From Gammaproteobacteria bacterium (GTDB lineage Bacteria > Pseudomonadota > Gammaproteobacteria > Pseudomonadales > Cellvibrionaceae), in NCBI GenBank assembly GCA_004172865.1, contig SEBV01000011.1, positions 1-64,000 on the forward strand: DNA of 64,000 bases. Direction: 5' to 3'. The notes beneath the pieces are model-generated. The model saw nothing but the letters and a program-made list of their open reading frames with translations. It was not told where the DNA came from and did no database searches. The position numbers and the translations under genes were made by a program. Shown piece by piece: positions 1,134-63,611 of the stretch. The stretch's first letter is position 1, and the number at the start of each line of letters is the position of its first letter.

Positions 1134-3269
1134 ATGAAAACTTCAATACGCAAATCACTTGGGCTGGTATCGCTACTAGCACTTGGTGTTGCAGCGAGCC
1201 AAGCGCAAGCTGCAAGCTGTACTTATTCGGTCAATAACGAATGGAACACCGGCTTTCAAGGCACAGTAACCATCACCAACAATGGCACTACAGCCGTTAA
1301 TGGTTGGAATGTAGGCTGGACTTACACCAATAACAAAATTACCAGCTCATGGAACGCTACCTTGACTGGCAGCAACCCATATTCAGCTACTGCATTGGAT
1401 TGGAACAAAACCATTCAACCAGGCCAATCTGTAAGCTTCGGCGTACAGGGTGATAAAAACGGTTCAGCGGCTGAGATACCCACGATCACAGGTGCAGTTT
1501 GCTCAACTTCTCCAGCATCAAGCTCTACTGCAACTACCTCATCAAGCTCAAAAAGCTCGACGGCGGTAACGTCAAGTTCAAAAAGCTCTGTTGCTAGCTC
1601 AACTCCAAGCAGTGCAAGCAGCTCATCGCAACAAGCATGTGGTGCTTCACAATGTAACTGGTACGGCACAACTTACCCAAGTTGCACCAGCACTACCAGC
1701 GGTTGGGGTTATGAGAACGGCAAAAGCTGTATCGCTCCTTCAACTTGCGCCACTCAACCAGCACCATACGGTGTAGTTGCAGGCTGCCCAGTTTCATCAG
1801 CAAGCTCAAAATCAAGCTCTGTTGTAAGCTCCATATCTTCAAGCAAATCTAGCGTAAGTTCGGTTATTAGCTCTGTATCTTCAAGCAAATCCAGCGTTGT
1901 TAGCTCTGTTTCAAGTGTGAAATCAAGCTCTAGCTCTGTGGTTAGCTCTGTATCTTCAAGCATCAAATCAAGTTCTAGCTCTTCAAGCACTAGCACAAGT
2001 GCTGGCCCACGTTTGGATAACCCATTCGTAGGCGCTACCTGGTATGTAGACCCAATCTGGTCAGCTAAAGCACAAGCTGAAACTGGCGGTTCTAAAGTTG
2101 CCAAGTACAACACTGCAGTATGGATGGACCGTATTGGCGCTATCGCACCAACTGACGGCAGCTTCGGCTTGCGTGATCACTTGGATGCTGCTTTAGCCCA
2201 AGGCGCTAACCTTATCCAAATCGTAGTTTATGACTTACCAAACCGCGATTGCCATGCTCTTGCATCAAACGGTGAATTGACTCAAAACGCTGCGGGCACT
2301 GCTCGTTATCGCACTGAGTACGTAGATGCTGTTGCTGCAATCTTCGCTGATGCCAAGTACAAAAGCTTGCGTATCGTTGCGATTATTGAGCCTGACTCAT
2401 TGCCAAACCTGGTTACCAACATGAGCGATCCGGATTGTGCTATAGCATCACAAGGTCCAGATGGTTATGTGCCAAATACTCAATACACACTCAACAAACT
2501 CTATCCAATTACCAACGTGTATAGCTATGTTGATATCGGTCACTCAGGCTGGTTAGGTTGGGAAGCAACTAACATGACTGATGCAATCACCTTGATTGGT
2601 AATGCGATTAAAGGCACTACTGCTGGCGTAAACAGCATCGCAGGCTTCGTGTCTAATACTGCTAACACCACCCCATTGTCTGAACCATTCCTTGATCCGT
2701 TTGAGAAGACTGGCTTGCCAGGTAACAACGGTACTCAAGTACGCTCAGCCAAATTCTATGAGTGGAATGAGCACTTCGGTGAAATTTCATTCGTAAAAGC
2801 ATGGCGCACCAAGGCAATCGCTGCAGGCTTCCCATCTACCATCGGTATGATTATTGATACTGGCCGTAACGGCTGGGGCGGATCTGCTCGTCCAACAGCA
2901 CTTTCTACCAGCACTGATTTGGAAACTTTCGTGAACAAATCACGTATTGACTTGCGTTCACACCGTGGCAACTGGTGTAACCAGTACAGCGGTATCGGTG
3001 AGCGTCCACAAGTTATCAACGCTGATGGTATTGATGCTTACGTATGGGTGAAACCACCAGGTGAATCAGACGGCGCTGCTTCTTTAGAGTTGTCTTACGA
3101 TCCACAAGATCCAGCAAAAGGCTTCGACCGTATGTGTGACCCAACTTACAACCGTAGCGAAACGAGCGGCACTACTGGATCTGGCGCTATGCCTGATGCA
3201 CCTGTAGCAGGTCGTTGGTTCAAAGCTGGCTTCTTACAATTGTTGAAAGACGCTTACCCAGCTCTTTAA
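1134..3269 (+). CDS. cel6A: GH6 cellobiohydrolase/endoglucanase with CBM2 and CBM10
   Basis: Secreted cellulase of 711 residues acting on beta-1,4-glucan by inversion. Residues 1-26 form a Sec signal peptide ending in AQA. CBM2 (about 27-123) has the family pattern of spaced tryptophans and two terminal cysteines. A serine-rich linker leads to a CBM10 (about 167-218, CNWYG and GWGYENG motifs). A second, longer serine/valine linker precedes the GH6 domain (about 292-711). The GH6 signatures are present: the aspartate of YDLPNRDC (D372) and the proposed catalytic acid in IIEPDSLP (D421). AGGA lies about 8 bases before the ATG. The gene is monocistronic, with a terminator at 3420-3450. Both CBMs target crystalline cellulose. 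The assignment is firm; exo versus endo mode is inferred. Confidence 0.95.
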   Translation: MKTSIRKSLGLVSLLALGVAASQAQAASCTYSVNNEWNTGFQGTVTITNNGTTAVNGWNVGWTYTNNKITSSWNATLTGSNPYSATALDWNKTIQPGQSVSFGVQGDKNGSAAEIPTITGAVCSTSPASSSTATTSSSSKSSTAVTSSSKSSVASSTPSSASSSSQQACGASQCNWYGTTYPSCTSTTSGWGYENGKSCIAPSTCATQPAPYGVVAGCPVSSASSKSSSVVSSISSSKSSVSSVISSVSSSKSSVVSSVSSVKSSSSSVVSSVSSSIKSSSSSSSTSTSAGPRLDNPFVGATWYVDPIWSAKAQAETGGSKVAKYNTAVWMDRIGAIAPTDGSFGLRDHLDAALAQGANLIQIVVYDLPNRDCHALASNGELTQNAAGTARYRTEYVDAVAAIFADAKYKSLRIVAIIEPDSLPNLVTNMSDPDCAIASQGPDGYVPNTQYTLNKLYPITNVYSYVDIGHSGWLGWEATNMTDAITLIGNAIKGTTAGVNSIAGFVSNTANTTPLSEPFLDPFEKTGLPGNNGTQVRSAKFYEWNEHFGEISFVKAWRTKAIAAGFPSTIGMIIDTGRNGWGGSARPTALSTSTDLETFVNKSRIDLRSHRGNWCNQYSGIGERPQVINADGIDAYVWVKPPGESDGAASLELSYDPQDPAKGFDRMCDPTYNRSETSGTTGSGAMPDAPVAGRWFKAGFLQLLKDAYPAL

Positions 3270-3618
3270 TCGAGTTCTACAGGAATTTAAGCCCGAATCA
3301 GGATGATGAGGGCTTGGCTTAAGGATGAGCCTCGACCTTTATATCGACGGTGATAATCATTGAGGACAAGGATTATTAGCTCTATGCCGATATAAAACAT
3401 TTAGCCAACACAATATTTTACCGGCCTGTCCCTAGCAGGCCGGTTTTTTATTTCAGACCAATATCGGCTATTTCAGGGACTTCCAGAAATCAACCATATT
3501 GCACTAGGCATACCGCTCATCCATTCGCTAGCCTGCTCCTACCAGGCAGTTAGTCGGCTTCGCAGAATAATAAAACGGCGGTCATTGATTCTTAATCTTT
3601 CAAGCGAGACAACTTCCG
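3270..3618. other. GH6-GH9 intergenic region
   Basis: Contains a long imperfect hairpin just after the GH6 gene (TTATATCG near 3339 pairing with CGATATAA near 3383, with an inner TGATAAT/ATTATTA pairing), then the strong terminator at 3420-3450. The remainder carries the GH9 promoter, which could not be pinpointed. Confidence 0.5.
3420..3450 (+). terminator. Intrinsic terminator of the GH6 gene
   Basis: CCGGCCTG (3421-3428) pairs perfectly with CAGGCCGG (3436-3443) across a 7-base loop and is followed by six T. Confidence 0.9.
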
Positions 3619-6558
3619 ATGAAACATTTTCCTACGAACCACAAAACTTCTGAAAATAACTATCAAGAAATTGCGCGCACTCTGAACCCATCGAATAAAC
3701 AAAAGCCACTGTACCAATTTATTGCTGCAGGACTTTTAACCATTGCCAGCGTTTCAGCCATAGCAGAAACCGGCAACCCACGTGTTAACCAATTGGGATA
3801 TGTGCCCAATGGCGTAAAAACTGCAACTTATAAAACAGCGAGCACCAGCCCGCAGCCCTGGCAACTCAAGCAAAACGGCACTGTTGTAGCAACAGGCCAA
3901 ACAACTAATTTTGGTAGTGACGCTTCCAGCGGCGATAATTTGCAACAAATCGACCTTTCCAGCGTAACCGCAACGGGCACCGGTTTTACAATTACCGTTG
4001 GTAGCGACACCAGTTACAGCTTCGCAATCTCGCCCACTGTTTTTAAGGGCGCACTCTACGATTCCTTAAAATATTTCTACCACAACCGCAGCGGCATCGC
4101 GATTGAAACCCAATACACCGGTGGCGGTAACGGCAGCTTTGCCAGTAACAGTAAATGGTCACGCCCAGCCGGTCATTTAAACGTTGGTGCTAATAAAGGT
4201 GATGTAAATGTCCCCTGCTGGACTGGCACTTGTAATTATTCTCTAAACGTTTCCAAAGGTTGGTATGACGCGGGCGACCACGGCAAATATGTAGTTAATG
4301 GCGGTATCTCGGCGTGGACTTTATTAAACCTTTACGAACGTAATCTGTACCTCACCAGTAACGCTAGTGTTCTCGGTGATGGCAAATTAAATATTCCAGA
4401 AAGCTCAAACGGTGTGTCGGATCTACTTGATGAAGCACGTTGGGAAGTCGAATTCCTGCTTGAAATGCAAGTTCCCGTCGGCCAAGCCAAAGCAGGAATG
4501 GTGCATCACAAAATGCATGACGTGGGCTGGACTGGCTTCCCCCTTGCGCCACATGAAGATCCGCAACAACGCGCACTGGTTCCACCATCTACCGCTGCAA
4601 CATTGAATCTTGCAGCAGTTGCCGCGCAGTCAGCACGTATCTGGAAAGATATAGATTCCGGTTTTGCTGCGACTTGTTTAACAGCCGCAAAAGCTGCGTG
4701 GGATGCAGCCCAAGCTAACCCCAACGATATTTATTCCGGCAATTACGACAACGGTGGTGGCGGTTACGGCGATAAAACCGTATCCGATGAATTTTATTGG
4801 GCGGCGGCCGAACTCTATATCACTACAGGCGATAGCAAATATCTAAGCACTATTAATAACTTCAGCAGCCTTCACACTGATTTTGGCTGGGCTGATACCG
4901 ATATCGCTGGTTTGATTTCATTGGCGACGGTTCCGAGCACTCAAACAACAGGTTTACGGGCGAGCGCTCAGCAAAAAATCGTGACTTTAGCGAATACCCA
5001 TTTGGCAACCCAAAACGCATCGGGCTACCCCGCCCCCATGTCAAACCTCGAATACTATTGGGGTTCAAATGGTGGCGTTGCCAACAAGTTGATTCTGTTA
5101 GGCCTAGCGTACGATTTCACTAAAAACGATAGTTTTGCCAAAGGTGTGGGCAAAGGTTTGGGTTATCTGTTTGGTCAGAATGCTCTGTCTACCTCATTTA
5201 TCACTGGTGAAGGAACCAAAACAGCAACTCAACCGCATCACCGTTTTTGGTCTAACGCCATCAGCGCAAGCTATCCCGTTGCACCCCCAGGCGCATTATC
5301 AGGCGGGCCTAACAGCGGATTGGATGACACAACTTCTGCAGCTCAGCTATCTGCTTGCAAAACCAAACCGGCAACTTGTTGGATTGACAATATTAATGCT
5401 TATGCGGTGAATGAAATCACTATTAACTGGAATGCACCGCTAGCCTGGAGCTTGGCGTTTTATAACGATTATGCAAACGCAAGCACTACGGTAAACACGC
5501 CTCCGGTTGCCAGAGTCACACCGACATCCTTTACCACCACAACCTATGGTATGACCACAGTAAGCGCAGCTTCATCAACAGACGTGGATAGCGATGCCTT
5601 AAGTTTCAGTTGGGATTTAGGAAACGGCAGCACAGCGACCGGCTCGCAAGTGAGACTTTCTTATACAACACCCGGCAACTACACCGCCACCGTAACAGTT
5701 AGCGATGGACGCGGTGGCGTGAGCACAGCAAGTGTGGCTGTCACCGTGGTTTCCGATGTTTTAAGCTCATCTTCCAGCTCAAAATCGTCAGCACCATCGA
5801 CATCCAGTAGCTCCAAATCGTCCACTCCGTCGACGTCTAGTAGTTCGAAATCATCATTACCGTCTACGTCCAGCTCCAGTAGTTCTAGATCCAGCATTTC
5901 CAGCGCTAGCAGTATTAGAAGCTCGTCGTCATCCAGTGCGGTTTCAGGTCAACAATGTAACTGGTACGGCACGCTTACTCCGTTATGTGGGACAACCACT
6001 AGCGGTTGGGGGTATGAAAACGGCAAAAGTTGCGTAGCGCCAAGCACTTGTTCGGCACAACCAGCGCCTTATGGGATTGTGGGAGGAACAAGCCTAAGTT
6101 CAAGCAGTTCCTATTCGACCTCCACATCTGTGCCGCGCTCCAGTAGTTCAGTATCTACCAGCTCATCCGTTGCAACTAGCAGTTCTGCGCCTAGCACTTC
6201 TTCATCGGTTTCGTCGGTAAGAAGTTCATCTTCCAGTAGCTTGGCGGTTGGCGGTGGCAAATGTACCTACGTAATAAGTAACGAATGGAATACTGGCTTC
6301 ACTGGCGCAGTTCGTATCACCAATAACGGCACTAGCGCTATCAACGGCTGGAATGTGAGTTGGAGTTATACCGACGGTACCAAGTTGACTAACAGTTGGA
6401 ACGCTACCGTAACTGGCTCCAACCCCTACTCTGCGACCAACCTGAATTGGAACAATTTAATCCAACCTGGGCAGTCAGTAGAAATAGGAATTCAAGGTAA
6501 TAAAGGAAGTGGTGCGACCGCACAAATCCCGATTATTACTGGCGCTGCTTGTAACTAA
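3619..6558 (+). CDS. GH9 endoglucanase with Ig-like, PKD, CBM10 and C-terminal CBM2
   Basis: Secreted cellulase of 979 residues. The N-terminus has an unusually long polar n-region (about 32 residues) before the hydrophobic signal core and AIAE. A CelD-type N-terminal Ig-like domain (about 52-137, beginning RVNQLGY) precedes the GH9 (alpha/alpha)6 barrel (about 140-620). Catalytic signatures are [10 protein letters not shown] (D217, D220), the PHHR histidine region (H540/H541) and [10 protein letters not shown] with the proposed acid E599. A PKD domain (about 629-714), a repetitive SSSSKSS(A/T/L)PSTS linker, CBM10 (about 776-820), a second Ser linker and CBM2 (about 877-979) follow. No good Shine-Dalgarno precedes the ATG, but no alternative methionine exists before the signal core. 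The CBM2 and CBM10 closely resemble those of the upstream GH6 enzyme, suggesting module shuffling. Confidence 0.93.
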
Positions 6559-15246: not shown

Positions 15247-15882
15247 TTAGAAATCCCAACGAGTGGAGACGCCCCACAAATTTACCGTGTCGTCTTTAAA
15301 CAGAATGCTACGAACACCGAGGCCCAAGCCAAACGATTTTGTGATCTGATAATCAAGGCGCAAGCCTACTAGTAAATCCGTATTACTTTTATCGCCGATT
15401 CTAAACTCGGCACCGTTAACCTCCACTTCTTCTTTCCATACAAAAACACCTAGCTCAGGTGAAACACTCCAATGGTTATTGAAAGGCAATTTAATGCCCT
15501 GTACCAAAGTTGCTCCACCAGCGGCATTTGGATAATGCCGCGCGAAGCCTTTTCCAAACGCGGTTTGGTCTTCAGAACCTGCAAGCCAGAGGTTGACCTT
15601 CACATCGCCAAGATCGAGATAACCTAACTCGGTGTATACATTTTCATTCCATTTGTAGCCGATGGATATTTGCGAGCCGGTGCGATTCACATCGTATTTA
15701 GTCAGGGTGAAATCGTAGCCTTCGTTAGCTAAGGCTGAATTAAATTCATACTCACTTTGGCTTCCGTTAACTTTGTAGACATCCAACCGCAGATAAGTAT
15801 TGCCGGAAAAATTAGCGGCTTGAGTATCAACAGCCACCAATAATAAGGTACCCAACGCGAATAACTTTGAACGGCGATGCAT
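15247..15882 (-). other. Possible internal start: signal peptide plus outer-membrane barrel inside the giant ORF
   Basis: At 15882 an in-frame ATG begins a segment with the look of its own Sec signal (MHRRSKLFALGTLLLVAVDT, then QA) followed by an outer-membrane barrel-like domain (alternating polar/aromatic strands, terminal WDF). GGGAGG (15893-15898 on the minus strand) sits 10 bases before this ATG. It may be an independently translated 211-residue porin-like protein nested in the giant gene, or an ancestral separate gene now fused. Confidence 0.4.
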
Positions 15883-18800
15883 AAGTAGCAAGCCTCCCAT
15901 GAGAATTAATAACGTGTAATCCACTGCACCGCCCTTACCTTTGGTTTTGATTTCTACCGGTGGTAACGCGGGCGGATTCACTGGCGGTTCAACAGGTGGA
16001 ACTACAGTAACTGCAACACTTACAGCGCCTGGGTCAACTACCGCCGAGTTCACTATGCCGTCGCCATCATTGGGCCCGCCGTCTGAAATAGTGAGCTGTA
16101 CGCAGTAACTACCTGCTACCAAACCAGATTTCCATTCAGCGCTCCCAGGTGGCGGACAGTAACCGGGATTCCCGATGGCAGAACGCAGGACGTTATCCGC
16201 ATTCTCGACAAAGTTGACCCATTGGCCTTTCTGGAATTTGCGATAAACCGCGTTAACAGGGATAGGCGCAATTTGTGGAATAGCGATATTGATGGATTGC
16301 CCCGCGGTAGGTAGATCAGCAACAGCAAAGTCAAAGATACCGCCGACGGGTGTGAAGCTGCTATCGGCCTTCAAGTTAGGAAGGGTGGCAACTTCACTAT
16401 CCAAGATTTGTACACCACCGGTGCTACTTGAAAGAGCTAGCAAGCCGAGACCACAACGCACACCTGGGTCGCATTCGATGAGGTATTTATCAGTAGTCAC
16501 CACTTTTTGCGGCAGGATATTGCTAGAGCGCATGTTATCCAGATAATCCGGAATACCATTGCCATCCGCATCGCCAGTGCCTTCAAGTTCATCGGCGATA
16601 CCGTCGCCATCGGTGTCAACGATTGCACTCAGCACCGGCAAACTTGGCACTACATGGAAATACAGCTGCGCCTGGACTTGGGCACCGCCGGAATCTGCCA
16701 CCGTAACATTTACCTGATGACTACCGGTTAAGCCTGCGGGATCAAACACGCGGGTCGCGTTGGTTAGATTCCCGTCGGTATCGGACAGCCCTGTGGTTGC
16801 GGACCAATCAAAGGTGTGAGTATCGCCAACATTTAAGTCAGTCACCCGTGCAGTCACAGTCACTGGCCCACCGTTAGGTGTGATAGTTGTGGTTGGGAAG
16901 CTGCCCTGCGTCAGGCTCAAATTCACCGTGGGCGGCACGTTCCCTTCACGAATGCTGATCGTATGGCGATTAGTTGCACCTATGTTGATATCGCCCGTTA
17001 ACCGCACCACGATCTGGCTATCACTTACGCCACTAACCGCGTTGAGCGTTACGGGTACAGCGACTTCCAATTGACCGTTGTTTGCCAGAGTCGCCGTACC
17101 GCTGGTTAGCGTGTGTTCGGCGGTTGTGGCTGTGGTGGCTTCATCCAACACATAAGAGACATTCAGCGGATACGTTGGTGAAGGTCCATTCAGGATAATT
17201 CTGAATTCAGTGTTGGTACCACGCAATGCGATTTGCGATTTGCTCAAGGACACGAGCGGACGTACATCCAACGTCTGCACTCCAGACGTTTTTATACCGG
17301 CCTGATTGGTCGCAGTCCATTTCACTTGATGACGGCCAGGCGGTAGTAGCAACGGTTGTGTTGCCGATACGCCATCTGCAATGGTGGTACAACAACTTTT
17401 GCCGCTAGTGTCAGTCGCCAGTTTGTCGAGCCCAGTATCCAATTCCGTTTGAGTACTGTTGTTTGCAAGCCGCAATAGCTGACGCAAAGTGATGGGCGTA
17501 TACAGCGCCGTTGCATCTATCTGCAAATCCGCAGGCACTGTAAGTACAGGTGCGAGTGGATCTACAGCATTTTGTGTTTCGAAAGATTGAGTGATCGTTG
17601 GTGCAGCTGCATAGACAGTATTACCCGCTTGCTCACCATTGATCGTACAGGTGCCGGCACTGAGGAGAGTCACACCCCCAAGCGACACTATACAAACAGC
17701 GGGTGTCGCCGAGGTAAAATTGACTGCTAGGCCTGAACTTGCCGTAGCTGCGAGGTTCAGCGGAACACCTACTGTTTGCGAACCGGGATTAGCAAAGGTC
17801 ACTGTTTGGGATGTCTTGGGCGTTACCGCAGTCGATGTCGCGGACGCGGTACCCGTTCCCGCTGAACTGGTTGCCGTCACCGTAAAGGTGTAAGCCACGC
17901 CATCGGTCAAACCAGTTACCACTATGGGCGATGAAGTACCCGTCGCCGTGATTCCCCCAGGACTTGAAGTAACGGTGTAACCGGTAATTGCGGAGCTTCC
18001 CGTAACCGTAGGTGCAACAAAAGTAACCGTAGCTTGGCCGCTGGTGGCAGTGACTGTTCCAATGGTTGGCGCGCCAGGTACTGCCGCTACAACACTGAAT
18101 GATCGAGTCACAGTTGTTGCAGCTTGATATGCGCCATTGCCGGCCTGACTAGCTTCGACAGTACATGTACCACTAGCGATAAGAGTGACCAATCCGCCGG
18201 AGGTAATAGTACAGACGCTGGTGGTAGTTGAAATAAAACTGACCACCAATCCCGAACTGGAGGTAGCGCTGAATGTTGGCGTCGTGCCCAAACTCTGCGT
18301 ACCTGGATCGGTAAAAGTAATGGTCTGGGTTGCGACAGGCGTAATAGCGTTGGATGCCACTGATGCTGGCCCAGTACCAACTGAATTAGTCGCCGTGACA
18401 GTAAAAGTATAGGCAACACCATTCGTTAAACCGGTCACTACAATGGGCGATGCTGGACCCGACGCGGTAATGCCGCCAGGATTCGCAGTCACCGTATAAC
18501 CCGTAACTGCAACGCCGCCATTAAATCCGGGAGTCGCAAAAGTTACAGTTGCCTGCCCATTGCCTCCTGTTGCAGTTCCAATAGTTGGGGCTGCAGGAAC
18601 AACCGCGCCAACACTAAACGTATGACTTACCGGGCTTGCAGGCAAAAAGGTGCTATTGCCTGCCTGCGAAACTGTAATCGTACAAGTTCCCACACTGATT
18701 AAAGTCACCACCCCTACAGAATTTACGGTACAAACTCCTGCTGTTGGAGTACTAAAGCCCACGGGCAAACCTGAGCTTGAAGTCGCACTTAGTGAAGGCA

Positions 18801-21800
18801 TTGAACCAAAATTCTGCGTACCCGGATCGTTAAACGTAATCGACTGACTGGCCGCGGGTGCAACGGAACCAGACACACCGGATGACGAACCTGTACCCGC
18901 TGAAGTTGTCGCCGTAACCGTAAAGGTGTAGTTCACGCCATTGGTTAAACCGGTGATCGTAATCGGCGAGCCAGTCCCGGTTGCTGTAGCACCACCGGGA
19001 CTTGCAGTAACCGTATAACCAGTAATAGATCCGCCGCCATTGGATGCTGGCGGTGTGAAAGTCACGGTCGCCTGAGTATCGCCGGGCGTTACTGTGCCAA
19101 TCACCGGCGCTCCGGGCGCAACAGCAATTACGGTAAATGAGCGACTGACGGGCGTTGCCGCAAGATAGCTACTATTCCCCGTTTGCGACGAATTAATCGT
19201 GCAGGTGCCAGTGCTTATAAACGTTAAAGCGCCGCTGCTGGTAATCGTACAAACACTAGTGGTAGACGAAGTAAATGTTGGCGTTAAACCAGAATCAGAC
19301 GTTGCTGTAAGCGTGGGTGTGGTTCCAAAATTTTGTGCGCCGGGATTACCAAAAGTAATTGTCTGAGTGGCCGCCGGTGTAATTGAATTGGTCGCCGCAG
19401 AAGCTGAACCCGTACCCGCAGAGTTGGTAGCCGTTATGGTAAATGTATAAGCAATACCGTTAGTGAGCCCGGTTACCGTGACAGGTGAATTCGACCCCGT
19501 TGCTGTAATTCCACCTGGATTGGACGTAACCGTATAGCTGGTAATGCTCGCACCGCCGTTAGATGGCGGTGCAATAAAGGTAATCGTTGCCTGAGTATCG
19601 CCTGCAGTGGCTGTTCCTACAGATGGGGCAGACGGAACCACGGCATTTACCGTAAACGACTGGCTAACTTGAGATGCGGCGGTATAAGCAGCGTTGCCAG
19701 CCTGATTCGTATTGATGGTACAGGTACCAGCAGCGATGAAAGTTAAAGCACCACCAGTGGTGATCGTACAGACGCCCGTTGTTGACGAGGTGAAAGTCGT
19801 CGTCAAACCCGAGTTAGAAGTTGCTGTAAGCGTCGGCGTAGTTCCAAAATTCTGCGCACCGGGATTTCCAAACGTAATAGTTTGCGTTGCCTGTGGTGTA
19901 ACTGAACCGCTGACAGTAGACGCGCTACCAGTACCCACAGAGTTAGTAGCAGTGACAGTAAAAGTATAGGCAGTCCCATTGGTTAAACCTGTAACAACAA
20001 TGGGTGAACTGCTACCTGTTGCTGTTATACCACCAGGACTCGACGTGACTGTATAGCCAGTGATTGACGCTCCACCTGTGTTGCCAGGTGCAGTAAAGGT
20101 AACGCTAACTTGACCATTTCCTGGTGTCGCAATTGGAGAAGTTGGTGCAGAAGGTACGGTTGGAACCGCAACTGTATGAGTTGAACCACTATTAAACGCG
20201 GCGGAATATCCATTTGTACCATTACCGTTGCCGGCAACATCGGTAATGTTGGTGGATGCTTTTAAATCCAACCTTAAGGTTCCTGTACCAGAAATCGTAT
20301 TGACTGTAACTGTCACACTTGAACCTGAACTTGCTGACACACTCGCAATAGTTGCCGTTGCCGTACCAGTGGCAGTCAGGACAAAATCATCGACAGAAAT
20401 ATTATTGGCAGACTCACCAAAGGTCACTGTAAAAGTCACGCTGGTAGCGGCAGACGTAGGCGAACCCGTTAATACAATGCTGCTCACCGAAGGCGCGACG
20501 TTATCGACAACTGTAATAGTAAAACCTTTATCAAAAGTGCCGCCCGCATTATCCGTCGTACGAATTCGAACGCTATAAGTTCCCCCAGCAAGTGACGTCG
20601 GCGTAGTTAGCCGCAATGATGTTCCGCTGATATTAAAGCTGGCGTTATTGGTGTCGCCAGCACCGGCAACTAACGAATAAGTATGGGTATTACCGGAGTC
20701 TGCATCCGTACTACTCAAGGTGCCGACAACGGCATTAACGCCTGCACTTTGATTAACGGTTGCTGCCGTGAGCGCTATATCGGTAGGAGGATTGTTGGGT
20801 GCGGCGGGTGTTATATAACCGGCAACAACACCGGTGTGATAGTAAATTGTCCAATTAGTACTGTTTTCGGATGCATACATAATTCGGTCGGCAGAAGTAT
20901 TAATCGCAAACCGGTCGTTCATATATCCATTAAGGGTGAAATCGAAGCCATCGACCCACGCACTACCATCGTAGGACGACATGAAATAGGTATTACCGGT
21001 GTAACTCACAAAGTAATTGGTGGTGCCCACCCGTTCAAAATCATCCACGATAATATCACCGTGTGTACCTTTGCTAATTGGAGTCGTAACCCAAGACCCT
21101 GAAGCATTGGTAACGTAAAAAGACGTCTTGGCATCCAGATCGGCATAGGCATAATGCAATTTATTATTGGCATCAACGGCGACCCCCGCTAACTGATACC
21201 GTTTTAGATCCCCTTTGCCGTTCAAAATAAGCGTGGGCGACGCGAAGTTATTGGTGGATGTCGCCAAGTAATAATCATCCTGAGCACTATTTTGCTCATC
21301 TTCTCGGCGATAAATCACCGATGCTTTCCCGGTACTATCGGCAACCACATAAAGATCGTGGATTTCATCCATACCGCTGTTGCTAGTAGAAAGTATGGTA
21401 GTAGTTACCCAACTGCCAGATGCATTGGTAGAGTAATAGAGAGTATTAGGCCCGAGATTTTGCGATATGTAAGCAGTGTGAACCTTGCCGTTTGAATCCA
21501 CGAAAACATCGACACTATCAACACCACCACCTGTTTCTGTGATCTTGGTAAAAGTCCAGGTAGTTCCGTTGTAATAACCAAAATAAGGGTCTCCAGTTGT
21601 AGCCATCGCCCCTTGGTACATAGAGAAAACAGCATATATTCGTCCTGCTGAATCTACTTCAAAATCCACTCGTTGCTCGTTACCCCATCCAACTCCAACC
21701 GCCCCGCTGATAGAGGCAGTTGTAATGGACGCATAATCCGTAAAACCTGAACCATTCCATTTACGAAATTTAATTGAGTTTCCACTCGCAGCGCTCGCTT

Positions 21801-22746
21801 GGGCAAGATAAAAATCTCCAGCACTGTTCGTTCTGATTTTTGGAAATTTCCAGTAAGGAACTGCATCGATAGTTCCCGTTTCAAATGCCGGATTAACTTG
21901 CACTGGCACGGGTGATAGTTGGTTACCTGAATCCTTAGCAGCCAGGTAAACAATATAATTTGTTCCTGCACTAAGGCCGGTAAATGAAAGGTTGCCTGTA
22001 GTAGTAATTGCTTGATTACCAGTCCTTACAGCGGCATTGCCACCGCCGTCCGTGCCGGCAATAACTTGTGCACTGCTTGGTGCTACTGCGGATGAATTCA
22101 CGACGACGCCATAAACTGTGCTGGCTTTGCTAGCGCTAAAATTTACTTGAAAGCTTGTAGATGTTTTGTTAGAAATCGACGGGCTGGTGATGAAGGGTTT
22201 TGTAGATGCAGGCACCCAAGTGCCGCCAAAGCTAGTGCACTTAGCTTGGTTTAACGTTGACCAGGTAGCCATGTAATACGTGCGCCCATATAGATGGCAG
22301 TGATCATTTGGGGCTTCATGCGCAAACACTTTTCGCCCTAAAATTTCACCGGAAATATCTGCACCAACCATTCCACTCGTTTTCAACAAATCATTATCAT
22401 GCAAAAATTTTAATGCCGCGTTATCGGATTCTGCTTTTACAACTTGCATTTTTTTCTGCGACTGTCCAAAACTGGAAAATGCCTGGCGTTTTGGTTTGAT
22501 CATCTGTGCAGATTGTTCTGCTTTTACATCAGAGGTTAAACTGCTCGCTGCGTTTTCAGCAACATACACAACCGCATTTCGGTTTGCCCGTCTGCTTATT
22601 GAATGGCTAGCAATTGGCGCTGCAACAGCGCTGCCGCCACCGAGCATGGCGAGCAAACCGACGTTAATCGCTTTTGAAAAAACTTTTCTCATCGATTTTT
22701 TTTCAGAAAATTCAGAGTCATTCACAGAGTTATGTTTATCTGACAT
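15247..22746 (-). CDS. Giant multidomain surface protein with FN3-type repeats, sorting-like signal and beta-barrel
   Basis: Predicted exported protein of 2499 residues. A signal peptide lies at about 19-43 (MRKVFSKAINVGLL start). Residues about 290-640 look like a propeller of repeated tryptophan/aromatic blades; a cadherin-like domain and an Ig-like domain follow. Residues about 863-1724 hold five copies of a two-part unit: an FN3-like module (YTVTSSPGGITATG, LTNGxAYTFTVTATNS) and a QTITF...C-containing module. Then come an Ig/PKD region and a calcium-loop stretch (DTDGDGIADELEG, about 2043-2069). At about 2270-2291 is a Gly-rich/transmembrane/basic motif (KGKGGAVDYTLLI...HRR) like GlyGly- or JDVT-CTERM signals. 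Unusually it is not terminal: a second signal-like segment and a 190-residue barrel-like domain ending in WDF follow. AAGGA precedes the ATG, and the start overlaps the upstream gene by 11 bp. An adhesin or matrix role is inferred. Confidence 0.8.
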   Translation of the reverse strand: MSDKHNSVNDSEFSEKKSMRKVFSKAINVGLLAMLGGGSAVAAPIASHSISRRANRNAVVYVAENAASSLTSDVKAEQSAQMIKPKRQAFSSFGQSQKKMQVVKAESDNAALKFLHDNDLLKTSGMVGADISGEILGRKVFAHEAPNDHCHLYGRTYYMATWSTLNQAKCTSFGGTWVPASTKPFITSPSISNKTSTSFQVNFSASKASTVYGVVVNSSAVAPSSAQVIAGTDGGGNAAVRTGNQAITTTGNLSFTGLSAGTNYIVYLAAKDSGNQLSPVPVQVNPAFETGTIDAVPYWKFPKIRTNSAGDFYLAQASAASGNSIKFRKWNGSGFTDYASITTASISGAVGVGWGNEQRVDFEVDSAGRIYAVFSMYQGAMATTGDPYFGYYNGTTWTFTKITETGGGVDSVDVFVDSNGKVHTAYISQNLGPNTLYYSTNASGSWVTTTILSTSNSGMDEIHDLYVVADSTGKASVIYRREDEQNSAQDDYYLATSTNNFASPTLILNGKGDLKRYQLAGVAVDANNKLHYAYADLDAKTSFYVTNASGSWVTTPISKGTHGDIIVDDFERVGTTNYFVSYTGNTYFMSSYDGSAWVDGFDFTLNGYMNDRFAINTSADRIMYASENSTNWTIYYHTGVVAGYITPAAPNNPPTDIALTAATVNQSAGVNAVVGTLSSTDADSGNTHTYSLVAGAGDTNNASFNISGTSLRLTTPTSLAGGTYSVRIRTTDNAGGTFDKGFTITVVDNVAPSVSSIVLTGSPTSAATSVTFTVTFGESANNISVDDFVLTATGTATATIASVSASSGSSVTVTVNTISGTGTLRLDLKASTNITDVAGNGNGTNGYSAAFNSGSTHTVAVPTVPSAPTSPIATPGNGQVSVTFTAPGNTGGASITGYTVTSSPGGITATGSSSPIVVTGLTNGTAYTFTVTATNSVGTGSASTVSGSVTPQATQTITFGNPGAQNFGTTPTLTATSNSGLTTTFTSSTTGVCTITTGGALTFIAAGTCTINTNQAGNAAYTAASQVSQSFTVNAVVPSAPSVGTATAGDTQATITFIAPPSNGGASITSYTVTSNPGGITATGSNSPVTVTGLTNGIAYTFTITATNSAGTGSASAATNSITPAATQTITFGNPGAQNFGTTPTLTATSDSGLTPTFTSSTTSVCTITSSGALTFISTGTCTINSSQTGNSSYLAATPVSRSFTVIAVAPGAPVIGTVTPGDTQATVTFTPPASNGGGSITGYTVTASPGGATATGTGSPITITGLTNGVNYTFTVTATTSAGTGSSSGVSGSVAPAASQSITFNDPGTQNFGSMPSLSATSSSGLPVGFSTPTAGVCTVNSVGVVTLISVGTCTITVSQAGNSTFLPASPVSHTFSVGAVVPAAPTIGTATGGNGQATVTFATPGFNGGVAVTGYTVTANPGGITASGPASPIVVTGLTNGVAYTFTVTATNSVGTGPASVASNAITPVATQTITFTDPGTQSLGTTPTFSATSSSGLVVSFISTTTSVCTITSGGLVTLIASGTCTVEASQAGNGAYQAATTVTRSFSVVAAVPGAPTIGTVTATSGQATVTFVAPTVTGSSAITGYTVTSSPGGITATGTSSPIVVTGLTDGVAYTFTVTATSSAGTGTASATSTAVTPKTSQTVTFANPGSQTVGVPLNLAATASSGLAVNFTSATPAVCIVSLGGVTLLSAGTCTINGEQAGNTVYAAAPTITQSFETQNAVDPLAPVLTVPADLQIDATALYTPITLRQLLRLANNSTQTELDTGLDKLATDTSGKSCCTTIADGVSATQPLLLPPGRHQVKWTATNQAGIKTSGVQTLDVRPLVSLSKSQIALRGTNTEFRIILNGPSPTYPLNVSYVLDEATTATTAEHTLTSGTATLANNGQLEVAVPVTLNAVSGVSDSQIVVRLTGDINIGATNRHTISIREGNVPPTVNLSLTQGSFPTTTITPNGGPVTVTARVTDLNVGDTHTFDWSATTGLSDTDGNLTNATRVFDPAGLTGSHQVNVTVADSGGAQVQAQLYFHVVPSLPVLSAIVDTDGDGIADELEGTGDADGNGIPDYLDNMRSSNILPQKVVTTDKYLIECDPGVRCGLGLLALSSSTGGVQILDSEVATLPNLKADSSFTPVGGIFDFAVADLPTAGQSINIAIPQIAPIPVNAVYRKFQKGQWVNFVENADNVLRSAIGNPGYCPPPGSAEWKSGLVAGSYCVQLTISDGGPNDGDGIVNSAVVDPGAVSVAVTVVPPVEPPVNPPALPPVEIKTKGKGGAVDYTLLILMGGLLLMHRRSKLFALGTLLLVAVDTQAANFSGNTYLRLDVYKVNGSQSEYEFNSALANEGYDFTLTKYDVNRTGSQISIGYKWNENVYTELGYLDLGDVKVNLWLAGSEDQTAFGKGFARHYPNAAGGATLVQGIKLPFNNHWSVSPELGVFVWKEEVEVNGAEFRIGDKSNTDLLVGLRLDYQITKSFGLGLGVRSILFKDDTVNLWGVSTRWDF
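17570..20165 (-). repeat. Five tandem copies of a ~516-520 bp coding repeat
   Basis: FN3 module starts fall near 20160, 19640, 19120, 18604 and 18088, a regular period of about 172 residues. Each copy pairs an FN3-like module with a QTITF(x)NPGxQ...SGL...VCTI module. Copies have diverged at third codon positions but keep the protein pattern, so duplication is not very recent; such arrays are prone to length change. Confidence 0.85.
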
Positions 22747-56355: not shown

Positions 56356-57000
56356 ATGCGACAACTTCTTTCTCTTTTACTCTTGCCTACCCTCTTCATT
56401 GCGATCAATGCCAATGCGCTTTTAATCACTGATACCTATGTTTACGAACAAAAAATCCCCCAGAATTCGTGGGCAGGACATGTATTTGAACTTATTCCTG
56501 CGGGTTATTCGCCGGAGACAGATTCGATAACGCATATCAAGTTAACTTACGATTTCACTGAAATCTGGTCGCCAGATAATCAGGGCGATGAATATCAGTA
56601 TGACGATGGGAGTTATCCTGAGAACCCCGATGAAAATTCACCGCAATATCAGGATGAATTTGTTATTTTTAGTTCATGGATGTTTATTTGGCGGGAAGTT
56701 TACGGAGATATAGACACAGGTTTGACCGTATTTGAAAAAGATTGGACACGCAATAATAGTTGCCAGTTTGCAACAGCCGCCGTTCCTGGCGATGATGACA
56801 CCGAATATTGTGTCTACAATCTCGATTTAGCAGGAACTCTAAATGCTTACGTTTATTCAGCTAGCGCTAATTTGTGGTTACATTCCATAAAACTGGAAGT
56901 TGAAGTCGACCGCGTGGAAGTACCTGAACCCAATCCCATTTTGCTTTTAGGTATTGGCTTATTTGCAATTGGTTTTTTGCGCAGCCGCAAACGCGTGTAA
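56356..57000 (+). CDS. PEP-CTERM sorting-domain protein
   Basis: Exported protein of 214 residues: signal peptide (cut near ANALL), an acidic, tyrosine-rich beta-sandwich region (YQYDDGSYPENPDENSP), and a C-terminal tripartite signal VPEPNP, hydrophobic helix (ILLLGIGLFAIGF) and RSRKRV tail. A pair of cysteines (about 136 and 156) may be bonded. GAGGTGA precedes the ATG. Probably an exosortase substrate anchored in or released from the envelope; no exosortase is nearby. Confidence 0.87.
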   Translation: MRQLLSLLLLPTLFIAINANALLITDTYVYEQKIPQNSWAGHVFELIPAGYSPETDSITHIKLTYDFTEIWSPDNQGDEYQYDDGSYPENPDENSPQYQDEFVIFSSWMFIWREVYGDIDTGLTVFEKDWTRNNSCQFATAAVPGDDDTEYCVYNLDLAGTLNAYVYSASANLWLHSIKLEVEVDRVEVPEPNPILLLGIGLFAIGFLRSRKRV

Positions 57001-58899: not shown

Positions 58900-59520
58900 T
58901 TATACCTTGAAGCCCTTCCCCACCACATAAACCTCGCGTGAACGCGGGCGCGATGCATCGGGTTTGCGGATTACCACTTTTTCGAAACTGGTGCGCACTT
59001 CTCTCACATACTCATCAAAGCCTTCGCCTTGAAAAACCTTGGCCACAAAATCGCCCTTAGGTTTGAGCACGTTGCGTGCCATATCCAGCGCTAGCTCTAC
59101 CAAATACATGGAAGCTGCTTGATCTGCGACGGCAACACCGCTGATGTTGGGCGACATATCGGAAATAACCACATCGGCCTGACTGCCGCCGAGCAGATCC
59201 ATAATTTGGTTAAATACCGATTCTTCAGTGAAATCGCCCTGAATAAAATCCACATTTTCGAGGGAATCCATCGGCAAAATATCCGACGCTACTACCCGCC
59301 CTTTCACCCCCACCATACGCCCCGCAATTTGCGACCAACTGCCCGGCGCCGAACCTAGATCCACCACCAGATTACCGGCGCGAATCAGCTTATCTTTTTC
59401 GTTCAGCTCGATAAGTTTGTAAGCCGCGCGAGCGCGATAACCGTCCACCTGCGCGCGCTTTACATAGGGATCGTTGACATGTTCTTCGAGCCAACGGTTA
59501 CTGGTTTTTGATCGAGCCAT
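58900..59520 (-). CDS. rlmE: 23S rRNA 2'-O-ribose methyltransferase RlmE
   Basis: Methylates U2552 of 23S rRNA in the 50S subunit using S-adenosylmethionine. 206 residues, normal length. Features: basic N-terminus, K in [16 protein letters not shown] (catalytic lysine region), SAM motif [41 protein letters not shown] (catalytic aspartate) and a C-terminal [14 protein letters not shown]. In E. coli and many gammaproteobacteria rlmE is followed by ftsH; here it is followed by unrelated genes and preceded 11 bp away by an antitoxin-like gene. Confidence 0.97.
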
Positions 59521-59531
59521 AAATCTTCCAA

Positions 59532-59789
59532 TTACAATAGCTTAACGCTGACTTGTAACGTGTCGTCTGCAGCGGGTGCTACATCTGGCACTTTATTAAG
59601 AGCAGCTAAAAATGCGGTTTGGTCGCCTGCGGCAGCGCGCTTATTTAAATATTCTTCAGTTAAATAGGCAGCCATTTTTTCAGCGATAGCCGAAGCCGCA
59701 AACTGATTAAAGGAAATACCATCTTTCTTGGCCAAAGCTTTCACTTGCTCATGCAGGGAATCAGGTAAACGTAAACTTAAAGTACTCAT
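59532..59789 (-). CDS. Antitoxin-like ribbon-helix-helix protein
   Basis: Protein of 85 residues with an RHH-type N-terminus ([17 protein letters not shown], then [19 protein letters not shown]), as in HicB/VapB-like antitoxins. A C-terminal acidic/Ala-rich tail may bind the toxin. Its ATG overlaps the end of the PIN gene by 4 bp (ATGA). It lies 11 bp before rlmE, so rlmE may be cotranscribed. Confidence 0.85.
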
Positions 59790-60211
59790 AGTAAACCTCG
59801 CTCGATTAAAAACTCTTTTGGCGTTAACACCTTAATACCAAAGGATTCTTCTACACCTTGAAAATCGCGCAAATTAAAAGTCACTAAATACTGGCATTGC
59901 GCGGCAAATGCAGCCTCTAACACCAAATCATCCTTAGGATCTTTTAAGAAAGGACGCCATAAAAAGAATATCTGGTGAATGCTGGCACGACTTAACAGGT
60001 AATCCAAAATAGCATCAATATTGGCTTCATTAAGATGCGGAAGTAACCCCAAGCGCTTCATTACGGACTCATATTCTACAAAGAGCGGTACCGACAAGCA
60101 GGGAAGATAATTTTCACCCTGTAATGCCTCCAACAACTTGAATGACGCCCCACTACGCGACTTTAAGGCCGCTACCAGAACATTGGTATCTAAAACGATT
60201 TTTGGCTTCAT
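59786..60211 (-). CDS. PIN-domain toxin-like protein
   Basis: Putative PIN ribonuclease of 141 residues, resembling the TIGR00305 toxin-antitoxin group. Acidic metal-binding residues: D in VLDTNVLVAAL, E in FVEYESVM, D in KDDLVLEAAFAA; the last position has N in VTFNLRDF where many members carry D. The toxin gene precedes its antitoxin, the reverse of the usual order, with a 4-bp overlap. Confidence 0.88.
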   Translation of the reverse strand: MKPKIVLDTNVLVAALKSRSGASFKLLEALQGENYLPCLSVPLFVEYESVMKRLGLLPHLNEANIDAILDYLLSRASIHQIFFLWRPFLKDPKDDLVLEAAFAAQCQYLVTFNLRDFQGVEESFGIKVLTPKEFLIERGLL

Positions 60212-60296: not shown

Positions 60297-60332
60297 AAAA
60301 AAAGGCGAACCCTTGAGGATTCGCCCTTTTAT
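60297..60332. terminator. Terminator of the GH16/cohesin-like operon
   Basis: GGCGAA (60304-60309) pairs with TTCGCC (60320-60325), with A-runs before and a T-run after. It ends the minus-strand unit starting at 63611. Confidence 0.8.
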
Positions 60333-60362: not shown

Positions 60363-60965
60363 CTATACCGCGTTACGACGACGAATAACCAGCGCGCCGA
60401 GCGCTAATAACAGCAAACCTAAACTGCTTGGCTCAGGCACAGTGACTGATTTTTCGTTGACGGTGATGTCAGCTAAAAAGTTATCGCTGCTGAAGCTGCC
60501 AAACCATGAGTTAGCTAGAATAAAGTCGTCGATTTTTATCGAGCTAATGCCAGCATGATCGGCGCTGAACAATAAAGTGAATAACTTGAATTCGCTCGCT
60601 TGTGCAGACAAGTCCGCCAGTAGCGATAGACCTGACAGGTTCACACTATTGCTGGATATTGGGCTGGCATCCAAACCATAGAACAGCGAATCGTCTAAAT
60701 CGCTGCTAAAGGTTGTGCCTTGGTAGCCTGTTACGGCGCCGTTGAATGACAGGTTAAAATCAAAACCGGCTAGATCAAGACCGCCGAGATCATCGCTGCC
60801 GTCCAGGCCAGATACCCATAAATCCAGCGCGATGCTATCGCCCACGGTATAGTCGTGAGCAACATTGGCACCGGCATTTCCGAAAGATAAAACCGGCGCA
60901 GCCAAGGCTGAACCTGCACATAAACACAAAGCACTGGCAGCCATCATTTTCTTAAACACATTCAT
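60363..60965 (-). CDS. Cohesin-like PEP-CTERM protein
   Basis: Exported protein of 200 residues. The start is ATG at 60965 with GGAG 8 bases upstream; the frame also opens at a TTG 6 bp earlier. After a signal peptide (ALCLCAGSALA) lies one beta-sandwich of about 140 residues with cohesin-like pattern: VAHDYTVGDSIALDLWV, LAGFDFNLSFNGAVTGY, and a late SSIKIDDFILAN strand. The C-terminus is a PEP-CTERM signal: VPEPSS, hydrophobic helix, RRRNAV. Cohesin domains bind dockerins; this gene starts 30 bp after a GH16 gene whose C-terminus is dockerin-like. The two may dock the enzyme to the envelope. Not proven: similar sandwich domains exist without dockerin partners. Confidence 0.8.
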   Translation of the reverse strand: MNVFKKMMAASALCLCAGSALAAPVLSFGNAGANVAHDYTVGDSIALDLWVSGLDGSDDLGGLDLAGFDFNLSFNGAVTGYQGTTFSSDLDDSLFYGLDASPISSNSVNLSGLSLLADLSAQASEFKLFTLLFSADHAGISSIKIDDFILANSWFGSFSSDNFLADITVNEKSVTVPEPSSLGLLLLALGALVIRRRNAV

Positions 60966-60995
60966 TTTCAAACTCCTGTTTTTTTTAATCGTTAA

Positions 60996-63611
60996 TTAAC
61001 GGGCACATGCTGCTTTGGTACATTTGAGTACGCAGGCACGGGAATCCAACACATTGATCACGCCGTCCTTAACAACATCGTAAGGGTCGTTGTTGCCAAT
61101 GGCCGGTGTATTTTTGCGAGCGAGGATTAAATCAATATCGGTAAGATCAACGGTTTTACTGCCGTTGAAATCACACTGCAAAGGCGCTGCGGATGAACTT
61201 GAAGAGCTGGTCGCGCCGATACTAAAAGTTTGCCAGGGCGAATCAAACGCGCCGCCAACCAATGGGCCTACGGTGAAGAAATACTTCACGGTTGCGCCCG
61301 CTGGAATTCCTGTCAGCGTGTAGACGTTGGTGTTGTCGCCGTTATGCGTCATGCGGATATTTTGTTGACCTTCATTATTGATGATGTAGTGAATATCCAC
61401 CCATTGCGCATTGTTCGCGTAGAAATTCACGCTGGTGTTGGACAATACGGTATAGCCGTCAGCGCTTGATGCAGAGGATGCCGTTGAACTTGCAGCGCTG
61501 CCCGCAACCGAAGAACTGCTGGTGCTCGCTACTGAACTGCTCGCGGTAGTTGTTCCCTTGATGATACGGAACCAGTTAAGACTCCAACCGCCCTGCTGCG
61601 CAAAAATGCCAAGGTTAAATGAGCCGGCTGGAAGCGTAACGGTTTGCGTCAAGGTGACCCAATTTTGGTTGCCGCCAGTCGCGGGGATATCCAGGTTGCC
61701 AAGGATAATGGAGCCGCCATTCAAATCTGCAGAAAGCTGTGAAGCTACTGGGCTCGCTACGCGATATTCAATGGTGTAAGTACCTGCAGTTGGAACGGTC
61801 AGGCCGGTGTAGGCAATCCAGTTACCGGCGCCGACGTTATCCACACTTTTACCGCCGCCTACATCTTGCGCATCAATCACTTGCACGCCGGAGGTCGCAA
61901 TAAAGCTTTCCGCCTGCGCAAACCATTCAAAGCTGGTGTTGGTTGCGCTGGATGAGGAACTGCTCGCTTTCGATGACACTGAACTCGACGCCACCACAAC
62001 ACTACTTGAAGAACGGCTGCTTGCTACAGACGAACTCGCAACCGACGCACTGCTCGCCTTAGAGGATGAGTTGCTTGAAACCACAGTGCCAGTAGATGAA
62101 GTCGATGAAGACGAACCCGTTGAAGCGCAAGCTGCATCGGTACCGCAATCCCACACAATGTCATCAATCGCTATAGGGAAGTTGGCTGTTGGTTGTGGAT
62201 CAAGGCTGGCAATCATGAACAATTGCGACATGGACTGCAGGGCGTTAATGCCACGAATTGCCGAAATTGGGATGGTCGCCTGCGCCCAATCGCCATTGCG
62301 TACCAAGCCATAAGTAGTAGCGTTAGCAGGAAAATTGATCCAGCTTTCATTAGTATAGGTATCTGCAATACCAATTTTGAAACCTACGTTCGCCGGGATT
62401 TTAATTCTGAACTTCAGCGTACCATTACCAAAATTACTCATATCGCGTACTTGGCGAGAGGCGATACCCGCACCAAACCACTGCGGCGCGGTGTAATTCC
62501 AGGCGATTACATTGCTGCCTTCATAAGGTGTTGCGGTGCCGGGCGCGACTGAAGTTTGATTCCAAACCCACAAGTCTGCGCTGCCACCCAATTCTTGTTT
62601 ATCGGTGGTGTTGGCATCGCTGAATACACCAAAGGTGCCGGTTTGTTTTGGCGTTTGGTTGCCGAGCTTCACTTCACCCAAGCCATTCAATTGATAGACG
62701 CGAACATAGTCGATATACATTTTGCTTGGCAAAGGCGCGGTTACCTGGCTTTCGCTCGCAGCATCGGTAAAGTTACCGCCCACGGCCAAGTTGAATAAGA
62801 AGTAGAAGGGAGCCTGAAATTCTGATGACTCGCCACCCACCGGAATCGGCGCGGCATACATATCGTGCTCAACGCCGTTATCGACTACCGTGAAACGGAT
62901 TTGCGAATCCGTCCAATACATACGGTAAGTGACGAAGCGATTAGTTAGCGGCGTGCTCGCTACATAAGAGTTTTTAGTTTGCCATGCGGTAGATGCAGCG
63001 CAGCTTTCATTGCCGGGAACACAAGCCGCTGCCGCGTAGAAAATCGCGTTGGAGGCGGTGTAACTATTAATGTCAGAACCAAGCGGAATCATGGATGAAA
63101 GCTTATGGCCCATCTCCATAATATCCAGCTCGCCTTTTGCTGGCCAAGTGGCGAGCGTGGTGCCGAGCATCCAACCCGCAGGCCATAAACCTGTGCCGAC
63201 TTGCGGCGTACTCAACCGGAATTCGATCAAACCGTATTTAACTTGTAGCTTGCCTTCGGTGGTGATTTTGCCCGAGGTAAACGGCTTGCCGCCGTAACCT
63301 TCTCTACGCGCCTGAATCGCCAGAGCTTTGGTACCCAGCTCAAACGGAACATCATCAATGCTCAGGTTGCCGGGGCGATAGTATTCCAGCTCCTGATTGC
63401 CCCAACCGCACAAGCCAATGCTGCAGCCATCGCTATCGATGCTGTTCCACACATTGCTGTCCAGGTTATTGAAGTTTTCTTCGTATAGCAGTGGGCCAAT
63501 CACTGGGTTTAATACATCGGCCATCACAGGCGCGCCTGCACATGCCATAAGACTTGCCAAAATCGCCAATTTTGCTGTGGCGACCTGCTTCGCTTTAGTA
63601 AAGTTATTCAT
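60996..63611 (-). CDS. GH16 beta-glucanase with CBM6, CBM56-like and dockerin-like domains
   Basis: Secreted endo-beta-1,3(4)-glucanase of 871 residues. Signal peptide, then GH16 (about 35-306) with the nucleophile/acid triad ELDIME (E161, D163, E166). A CBM11/ExoP-like jelly roll (about 307-489), a Ser/Val linker, CBM6 (about 557-684), a second Ser linker and a CBM56-like domain (about 720-802, YANNAQWVDIHYIINNEG) follow. The C-terminus (about 810-871) is dockerin-like: two calcium-loop repeats (DFNGSKTVDLTDID, DVVKDGVINVLD) plus a Cys cluster (CVLKCTKAACAR). GGGTG precedes the ATG. Laminarin or fungal beta-glucan is the likely substrate. Cotranscribed with the cohesin-like PEP-CTERM gene. 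Confidence 0.92.
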   Translation of the reverse strand: MNNFTKAKQVATAKLAILASLMACAGAPVMADVLNPVIGPLLYEENFNNLDSNVWNSIDSDGCSIGLCGWGNQELEYYRPGNLSIDDVPFELGTKALAIQARREGYGGKPFTSGKITTEGKLQVKYGLIEFRLSTPQVGTGLWPAGWMLGTTLATWPAKGELDIMEMGHKLSSMIPLGSDINSYTASNAIFYAAAACVPGNESCAASTAWQTKNSYVASTPLTNRFVTYRMYWTDSQIRFTVVDNGVEHDMYAAPIPVGGESSEFQAPFYFLFNLAVGGNFTDAASESQVTAPLPSKMYIDYVRVYQLNGLGEVKLGNQTPKQTGTFGVFSDANTTDKQELGGSADLWVWNQTSVAPGTATPYEGSNVIAWNYTAPQWFGAGIASRQVRDMSNFGNGTLKFRIKIPANVGFKIGIADTYTNESWINFPANATTYGLVRNGDWAQATIPISAIRGINALQSMSQLFMIASLDPQPTANFPIAIDDIVWDCGTDAACASTGSSSSTSSTGTVVSSNSSSKASSASVASSSVASSRSSSSVVVASSSVSSKASSSSSSATNTSFEWFAQAESFIATSGVQVIDAQDVGGGKSVDNVGAGNWIAYTGLTVPTAGTYTIEYRVASPVASQLSADLNGGSIILGNLDIPATGGNQNWVTLTQTVTLPAGSFNLGIFAQQGGWSLNWFRIIKGTTTASSSVASTSSSSVAGSAASSTASSASSADGYTVLSNTSVNFYANNAQWVDIHYIINNEGQQNIRMTHNGDNTNVYTLTGIPAGATVKYFFTVGPLVGGAFDSPWQTFSIGATSSSSSSAAPLQCDFNGSKTVDLTDIDLILARKNTPAIGNNDPYDVVKDGVINVLDSRACVLKCTKAACAR

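Follow-up and report, generated by a model that had tools for sequence, protein, structure and literature searches.

A dockerin-like glucanase tail and a neighbouring cohesin-like PEP-CTERM protein: a candidate docking pair in the Cellvibrionaceae

The GH16 gene and its PEP-CTERM neighbour

The window analyzed here is a stretch of 64,000 nucleotides of contig SEBV01000011.1, from a gammaproteobacterium of the Cellvibrionaceae, and our subject is a pair of genes on its reverse strand: one for a beta-1,3-glucanase-type enzyme of glycoside hydrolase family 16 (GH16) with a dockerin-like tail and, 30 bp downstream, one for a cohesin-like protein with a PEP-CTERM sorting signal (Table 1). The positions and spacing given in the initial annotation, made from the sequence alone, were confirmed. 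The open reading frame listing also offers a TTG start at 60971 for the cohesin-like gene, and the hairpin 3' of this gene was not among the calls of a terminator consensus scan.

Table 1. Features of the gene pair, followed by other genes of the window
Feature	Position	Strand	Size and evidence
GH16 beta-1,3-glucanase-type gene	60996..63611	-	871 aa; open reading frame listing, Pfam, PDB matches
GH16 catalytic domain, aa 45-307	62691..63479	-	Pfam 24.9 bits, cut-off 22
ELDIME motif in GH16 domain	63114-63131	-	
CBM6	61560..61916	-	Pfam 78 bits, cut-off 28.9
CBM56	61239..61457	-	Pfam 76 bits, cut-off 27
Dockerin-like tail	60999..61175	-	58-59 residues; two calcium-type loops, four cysteines
Cohesin-like PEP-CTERM protein gene	60363..60965	-	200 aa; ATG start
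Cohesin-like domain, single copy	60441..60899	-	~150 residues; fold comparison
PEP-CTERM sorting signal	60375..60443	-	Pfam 26.2 bits, cut-off 20.7; TIGR02595 30.2 bits, cut-off 16
Terminator-like hairpin and U-run, 3' of cohesin-like gene	60297..60330	-	-23.8 kcal/mol, z -5.0
PIN_3-domain gene and HicB/CopG-like partner	59532-60211	-	
Presumed RlmE-like gene	58900-59520		by eye
Further PEP-CTERM protein	56356-57000	+	
2499-aa protein with several fn3 domains	15247-22746	-	
GH6 and GH9 cellulases with CBM2 and CBM10	1134-6558	+	no dockerin match

The GH16 protein is composed, in this order, of a signal peptide, the GH16 domain, an intervening stretch with no domain assigned, CBM6, CBM56 and the dockerin-like tail. 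The closest solved structures to its catalytic domain were laminarinases (best E 1.5e-30 in the PDB comparison), and the domain contains ELDIME, which we take to be the GH16 active-site motif. The substrate of the secreted enzyme is probably beta-1,3-glucan. The tail carries two 12-residue calcium-type loops, DFNGSKTVDLTD and DVVKDGVINVLD, the two-loop arrangement of type I dockerins. The two dockerin-type loops claimed at the C-terminus are thus present, with valine at position 3 of the second, where the orthologues L002 and L003 have asparagine (L and G numbers are our labels for loci and genomes). In an alignment of 63 tail rows, two of them the truncated tails of L140, the cysteine before loop 1 and that after the D-x-R of loop 2 occurred together in 36 tails and were both missing from 27, one never being found singly, and the two C-terminal cysteine columns were filled in 58 and 59 of the 63. 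The cysteine-rich form is common within this dockerin variant, and we infer from the pattern that two disulfides may clasp the tail ends.

The neighbouring protein starts with a signal peptide, read by eye. It has the beta-sandwich fold of cohesins, with matches that include type I cohesins (1ohz and 6kgc); the VIA rows of this fold comparison come solely from re-aligning Foldseek matches. The claim of a single cohesin-like sandwich held up, with one copy of the computed fold, and so did that of the PEP-CTERM signal, which scored above the cut-offs of both Pfam and TIGR02595. When this protein was compared on its own with PDB sequences, only chance-level matches were obtained; a single-sequence structure prediction was of low confidence (predicted local distance difference test score, pLDDT, of 31.5), and a single-protein scan of the genome contigs found no relative.

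Recurrence of the pair with different cargoes

Among 144 genomes of the family, the tail model gave 22 strong matches (E below 1e-25) in 20 genomes, and in 22 of 22 cases the downstream neighbour was a cohesin-like protein with PEP-CTERM or a variant of it, such as SEPST in L034 and VPLPA in L037. In G024 the carrier reading frame is broken in the assembly. The initial annotation had agreed to give up the pairing if it occurred in no related genome; the pair recurs in relatives, with unrelated cargo, and is neither a one-genome nor a glucanase-only arrangement. With the PEP-CTERM protein of the window as the only query, 22 non-self matches were found, 17 with a tail upstream and five with none (L014, L019 and L021-L023). 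The source genome yielded one tail and one cohesin, in line with the one-enzyme character that had been proposed. G028 and G033 both contain a GH16-type pair and an ExeM-type pair, and the cohesins of these are 64-66% and 26-27% identical, respectively, to that of the window. Tail and cohesin distances were correlated (0.58, against 0.295 for the best of 2000 permutations, ancestry not removed).

Beyond the family, 13 of 369 genomes of the class had a tail (E <= 1e-6), and every one of them was among the 15 with a cohesin (E <= 1e-8). Ten of these genomes, that of the window included, had fed the cohesin model, and without them three genomes had tails and five had cohesins, with three shared. 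The 398 genomes of the phylum gave 12 with tails, nine with cohesins and eight with both, or nine, six and five when model genomes were left out. Moreover, named genomes scanned by the tail alone provided 37 loci, 24 of which matched the cohesin model; a second model, made from just 16 cohesins of the family, also matched 24. Two of the 24, L119 and L135, share their contigs with L081 and L077, rows of model A5, and excluding them leaves 22 of 35. The 24 positive loci belong to Gamma- and Betaproteobacteria and to Nitrospirota-type and Deferrisomatales records, and neither of the two Acidobacteria loci matched. As a control, both cohesin models were run on 17 further PEP-CTERM loci from the source genome and matched none, these loci being ~3 kb long against ~5-10 kb for the named ones. 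At L106 (G784, 1414-1998) there is a weak cohesin-like PEP-CTERM gene, and the protein immediately upstream ends in a dockerin-like stretch by eye, to which the tail model had no match.

The cargoes differ. GH16 is carried in the window; L002 and L003 match that protein over its C-terminal 480 residues, and the loci as read do not reach their GH16 parts. L013 is an ExeM/NucH nuclease (NF033681, 519.7 bits, cut-off 300; the model was run on this locus only, and the other family carriers were judged alike by eye). Further cargoes are an IgGFc-binding protein with Big_1 (L075) and a subtilase (L077), as well as RHS/PASTA, IgGFc-binding, multicopper oxidase, metallo-beta-lactamase fold, BNR and propeller proteins.

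A proposed anchor and its alternatives

We consider it likely that the GH16 tail and its neighbour form a monovalent cohesin-dockerin anchor. The glucanase would be secreted, its C-terminal calcium-binding, disulfide-clasped dockerin would bind, presumably in a calcium-dependent manner, to the lone cohesin of its neighbour, and the PEP-CTERM tail would sort that neighbour through exosortase, so that the enzyme would be retained by the cohesin protein at the envelope or within the exopolysaccharide matrix. A one-to-one anchor fits the single tail and single cohesin found in the source genome. The same module types build cellulosomes, which could suggest a multi-enzyme scaffold; nevertheless, the protein has a single cohesin, the genome yielded neither a scaffoldin with several cohesins nor several dockerin enzymes, and the GH6 and GH9 cellulases of the window had no dockerin match. 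We rejected the cellulosome reading, which is highly improbable.

The geometry of the pairs bears on another explanation. For 62 of 66 pairs, the tail was at whichever end of the carrier points to the cohesin gene, C-terminal tails having this gene downstream and N-terminal ones upstream. The tally comes from regions of up to 19 kb and is blind to N-terminal tails on ~1750-aa carriers with the cohesin on the far side; an earlier tally with mostly 1.5-kb flanks (61 of 63) was biased. In G385 (L163) two carriers flank a single cohesin gene, both with their tails towards it. In three of the four exceptions the cohesin gene lies upstream, of a carrier with a C-terminal tail in G181 and G466 and of one with an internal tail in G188; the fourth is the first tail of L140. 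Tail and PEP-CTERM protein could be a DNA cassette that travels together with no binding, the tail being a calcium-stabilized cap and its neighbour an unrelated matrix protein, and co-mobility alone could produce the usual adjacency of the dockerin-encoding end and the cohesin gene. However, a simple cassette would not explain G181, G188 and G466, where the genes are still adjacent but the tail does not face the cohesin gene; both halves resemble known binding partners, and the pairing reappears with unrelated cargo across records from different phyla. We regard the cassette as unlikely.

The search of the 144 family genomes detected exosortase in 76; of the 20 that have strong pairs, 18 carry it, and the other two are 77-79% complete. 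Within the genus the association is weak, because four members with no strong pair (G015, G017, G022 and G025) also carry exosortase. In the source genome the only exosortase gene found is split over two overlapping frames (L054, 1426-2899, G000:C18), which is either an artefact of assembly or a genuine break. PEP-CTERM tails are inserted in the membrane before processing, and this, together with the split gene, would suit a cohesin protein that serves the tail as a chaperone in the periplasm or as a partner in export, held at the inner membrane by PEP-CTERM until release. The exosortase alongside the pair in those 18 genomes speaks against such a role, which we judge a little less probable still than the cassette.

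Several results weigh against the anchor. The window tail fell under the Pfam Dockerin_1 (PF00404) cut-off (12.8 versus 22.9 bits), and the window protein had no Pfam Cohesin (PF00963) match. Nor was Cohesin matched elsewhere in the source genome, where a Pfam dockerin search gave one other hit, of 15.7 bits and below the cut-off. The top PDB matches of the tail profile were EF-hand proteins (5.4e-6), with dockerin chains ranking lower (2y3n_B, 1.1e-4; 5lxv_B, 5.6e-4). Nine weak family tails have no cohesin beside them, five of which were examined to ~8 kb, or over a shorter distance where two of the contigs end, and shared ancestry inflates both the co-occurrence and the distance correlation. 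Among the nine held-out phylum genomes with tails, four had no profile-level cohesin match: G826 has a lower-scoring neighbour cohesin, and G767, G778 and G808 have none within ~8 kb. Conversely, G269 has a cohesin and no tail within ~9 kb. Thirteen of the 37 named loci were without cohesin, five of these (L130, L136, L137, L141 and L147) having another PEP-CTERM family directly downstream, and the split exosortase belongs here as well. Lack of hidden Markov model matches had been named at the outset as grounds for dropping the pairing, and on Pfam cut-offs the two window proteins do lack them; this objection was nevertheless overturned by the cohesin fold and by relatives above the cut-off. 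Dockerin_1 was exceeded by the related tails of L013 (24.8 bits) and the multicopper oxidase L140 (25.1 bits), and Pfam Cohesin matched 14 of 18 relatives of the window protein at E <= 1 and 16 of 25 at E <= 0.01.

The monovalent anchor may be one case of a general display system in exosortase bacteria, in which a dockerin end and an adjacent PEP-CTERM cohesin gene have become attached to one end or the other of unrelated secreted proteins, the dockerin usually facing the cohesin gene, and the cargo is held at the surface or in the matrix. We advance this tentatively and find it slightly harder to believe than to doubt, our confidence having been lowered by the three non-facing pairs. If it were true, many anonymous PEP-CTERM proteins would gain a receptor role. 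The other PEP-CTERM family, whose proteins of ~240-250 aa follow tails of the DVKVC/DIKVC type (L130, L136, L137, L141, L147 and L111), would then represent another type of socket.

Known systems and neighbouring genes

Cohesin-dockerin binding is established in cellulosomes. The pairs described here resemble clostridial type I pairs (1ohz and 6kgc) in the cohesin fold and the duplicated 12-residue calcium-type dockerin loops, and differ from them in having a short PEP-CTERM protein with one cohesin, encoded by a neighbouring gene, two covarying cysteine columns and cargo that is mostly not cellulolytic. ExeM exonuclease NF033680 (ExeM-GG), where GG presumably stands for a GlyGly-CTERM anchor, is likewise a secreted ExeM nuclease with a C-terminal device, whereas the ExeM/NucH nuclease of this genus bears a dockerin tail and has a partner gene. 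To our knowledge, the role of most PEP-CTERM proteins is open. In 2009, Peer et al. reportedly described non-cellulosomal cohesin and dockerin modules; going by papers that cite that work, the likeness lies in modules outside cellulosomes, and the defined gene pair, sorting signal and changing cargo set ours apart. Such a pair in a Cellvibrio-like genome had been called new, but an excerpt of a 2008 report on the gammaproteobacterium Saccharophagus degradans already notes two dockerin-like and six cohesin-like open reading frames (PMC2386152). Excerpts of other papers propose a hypothetical peptide-degrading 'planctosome' with cohesin/dockerin modules in Planctomycetes (PMC6461901) and call the role of these modules outside cellulosomes unknown (PMC5244752). 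In the open-licence PubMed Central (PMC) literature, PEP-CTERM was not found together with dockerin or cohesin, and exosortase was found with either of them only in the same archaeal paper.

The pair points to a Gram-negative display module that has one socket and whose cargo can be exchanged, and such plug-and-socket gene pairs beside unrelated secreted proteins may be a general way of retaining proteins on the cell. Its compactness makes the roles of non-cellulosomal cohesins and dockerins and of PEP-CTERM proteins testable with two small domains.

As to the neighbouring genes, the PIN_3-domain gene and its HicB/CopG-like partner lie between the pair and the presumed RlmE-like gene, a homologue of which directly follows the pair in L002 and L003. 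The further PEP-CTERM protein near the pair did not match the cohesin model, and the 2499-aa protein has an OmpA-like membrane stretch towards its end.
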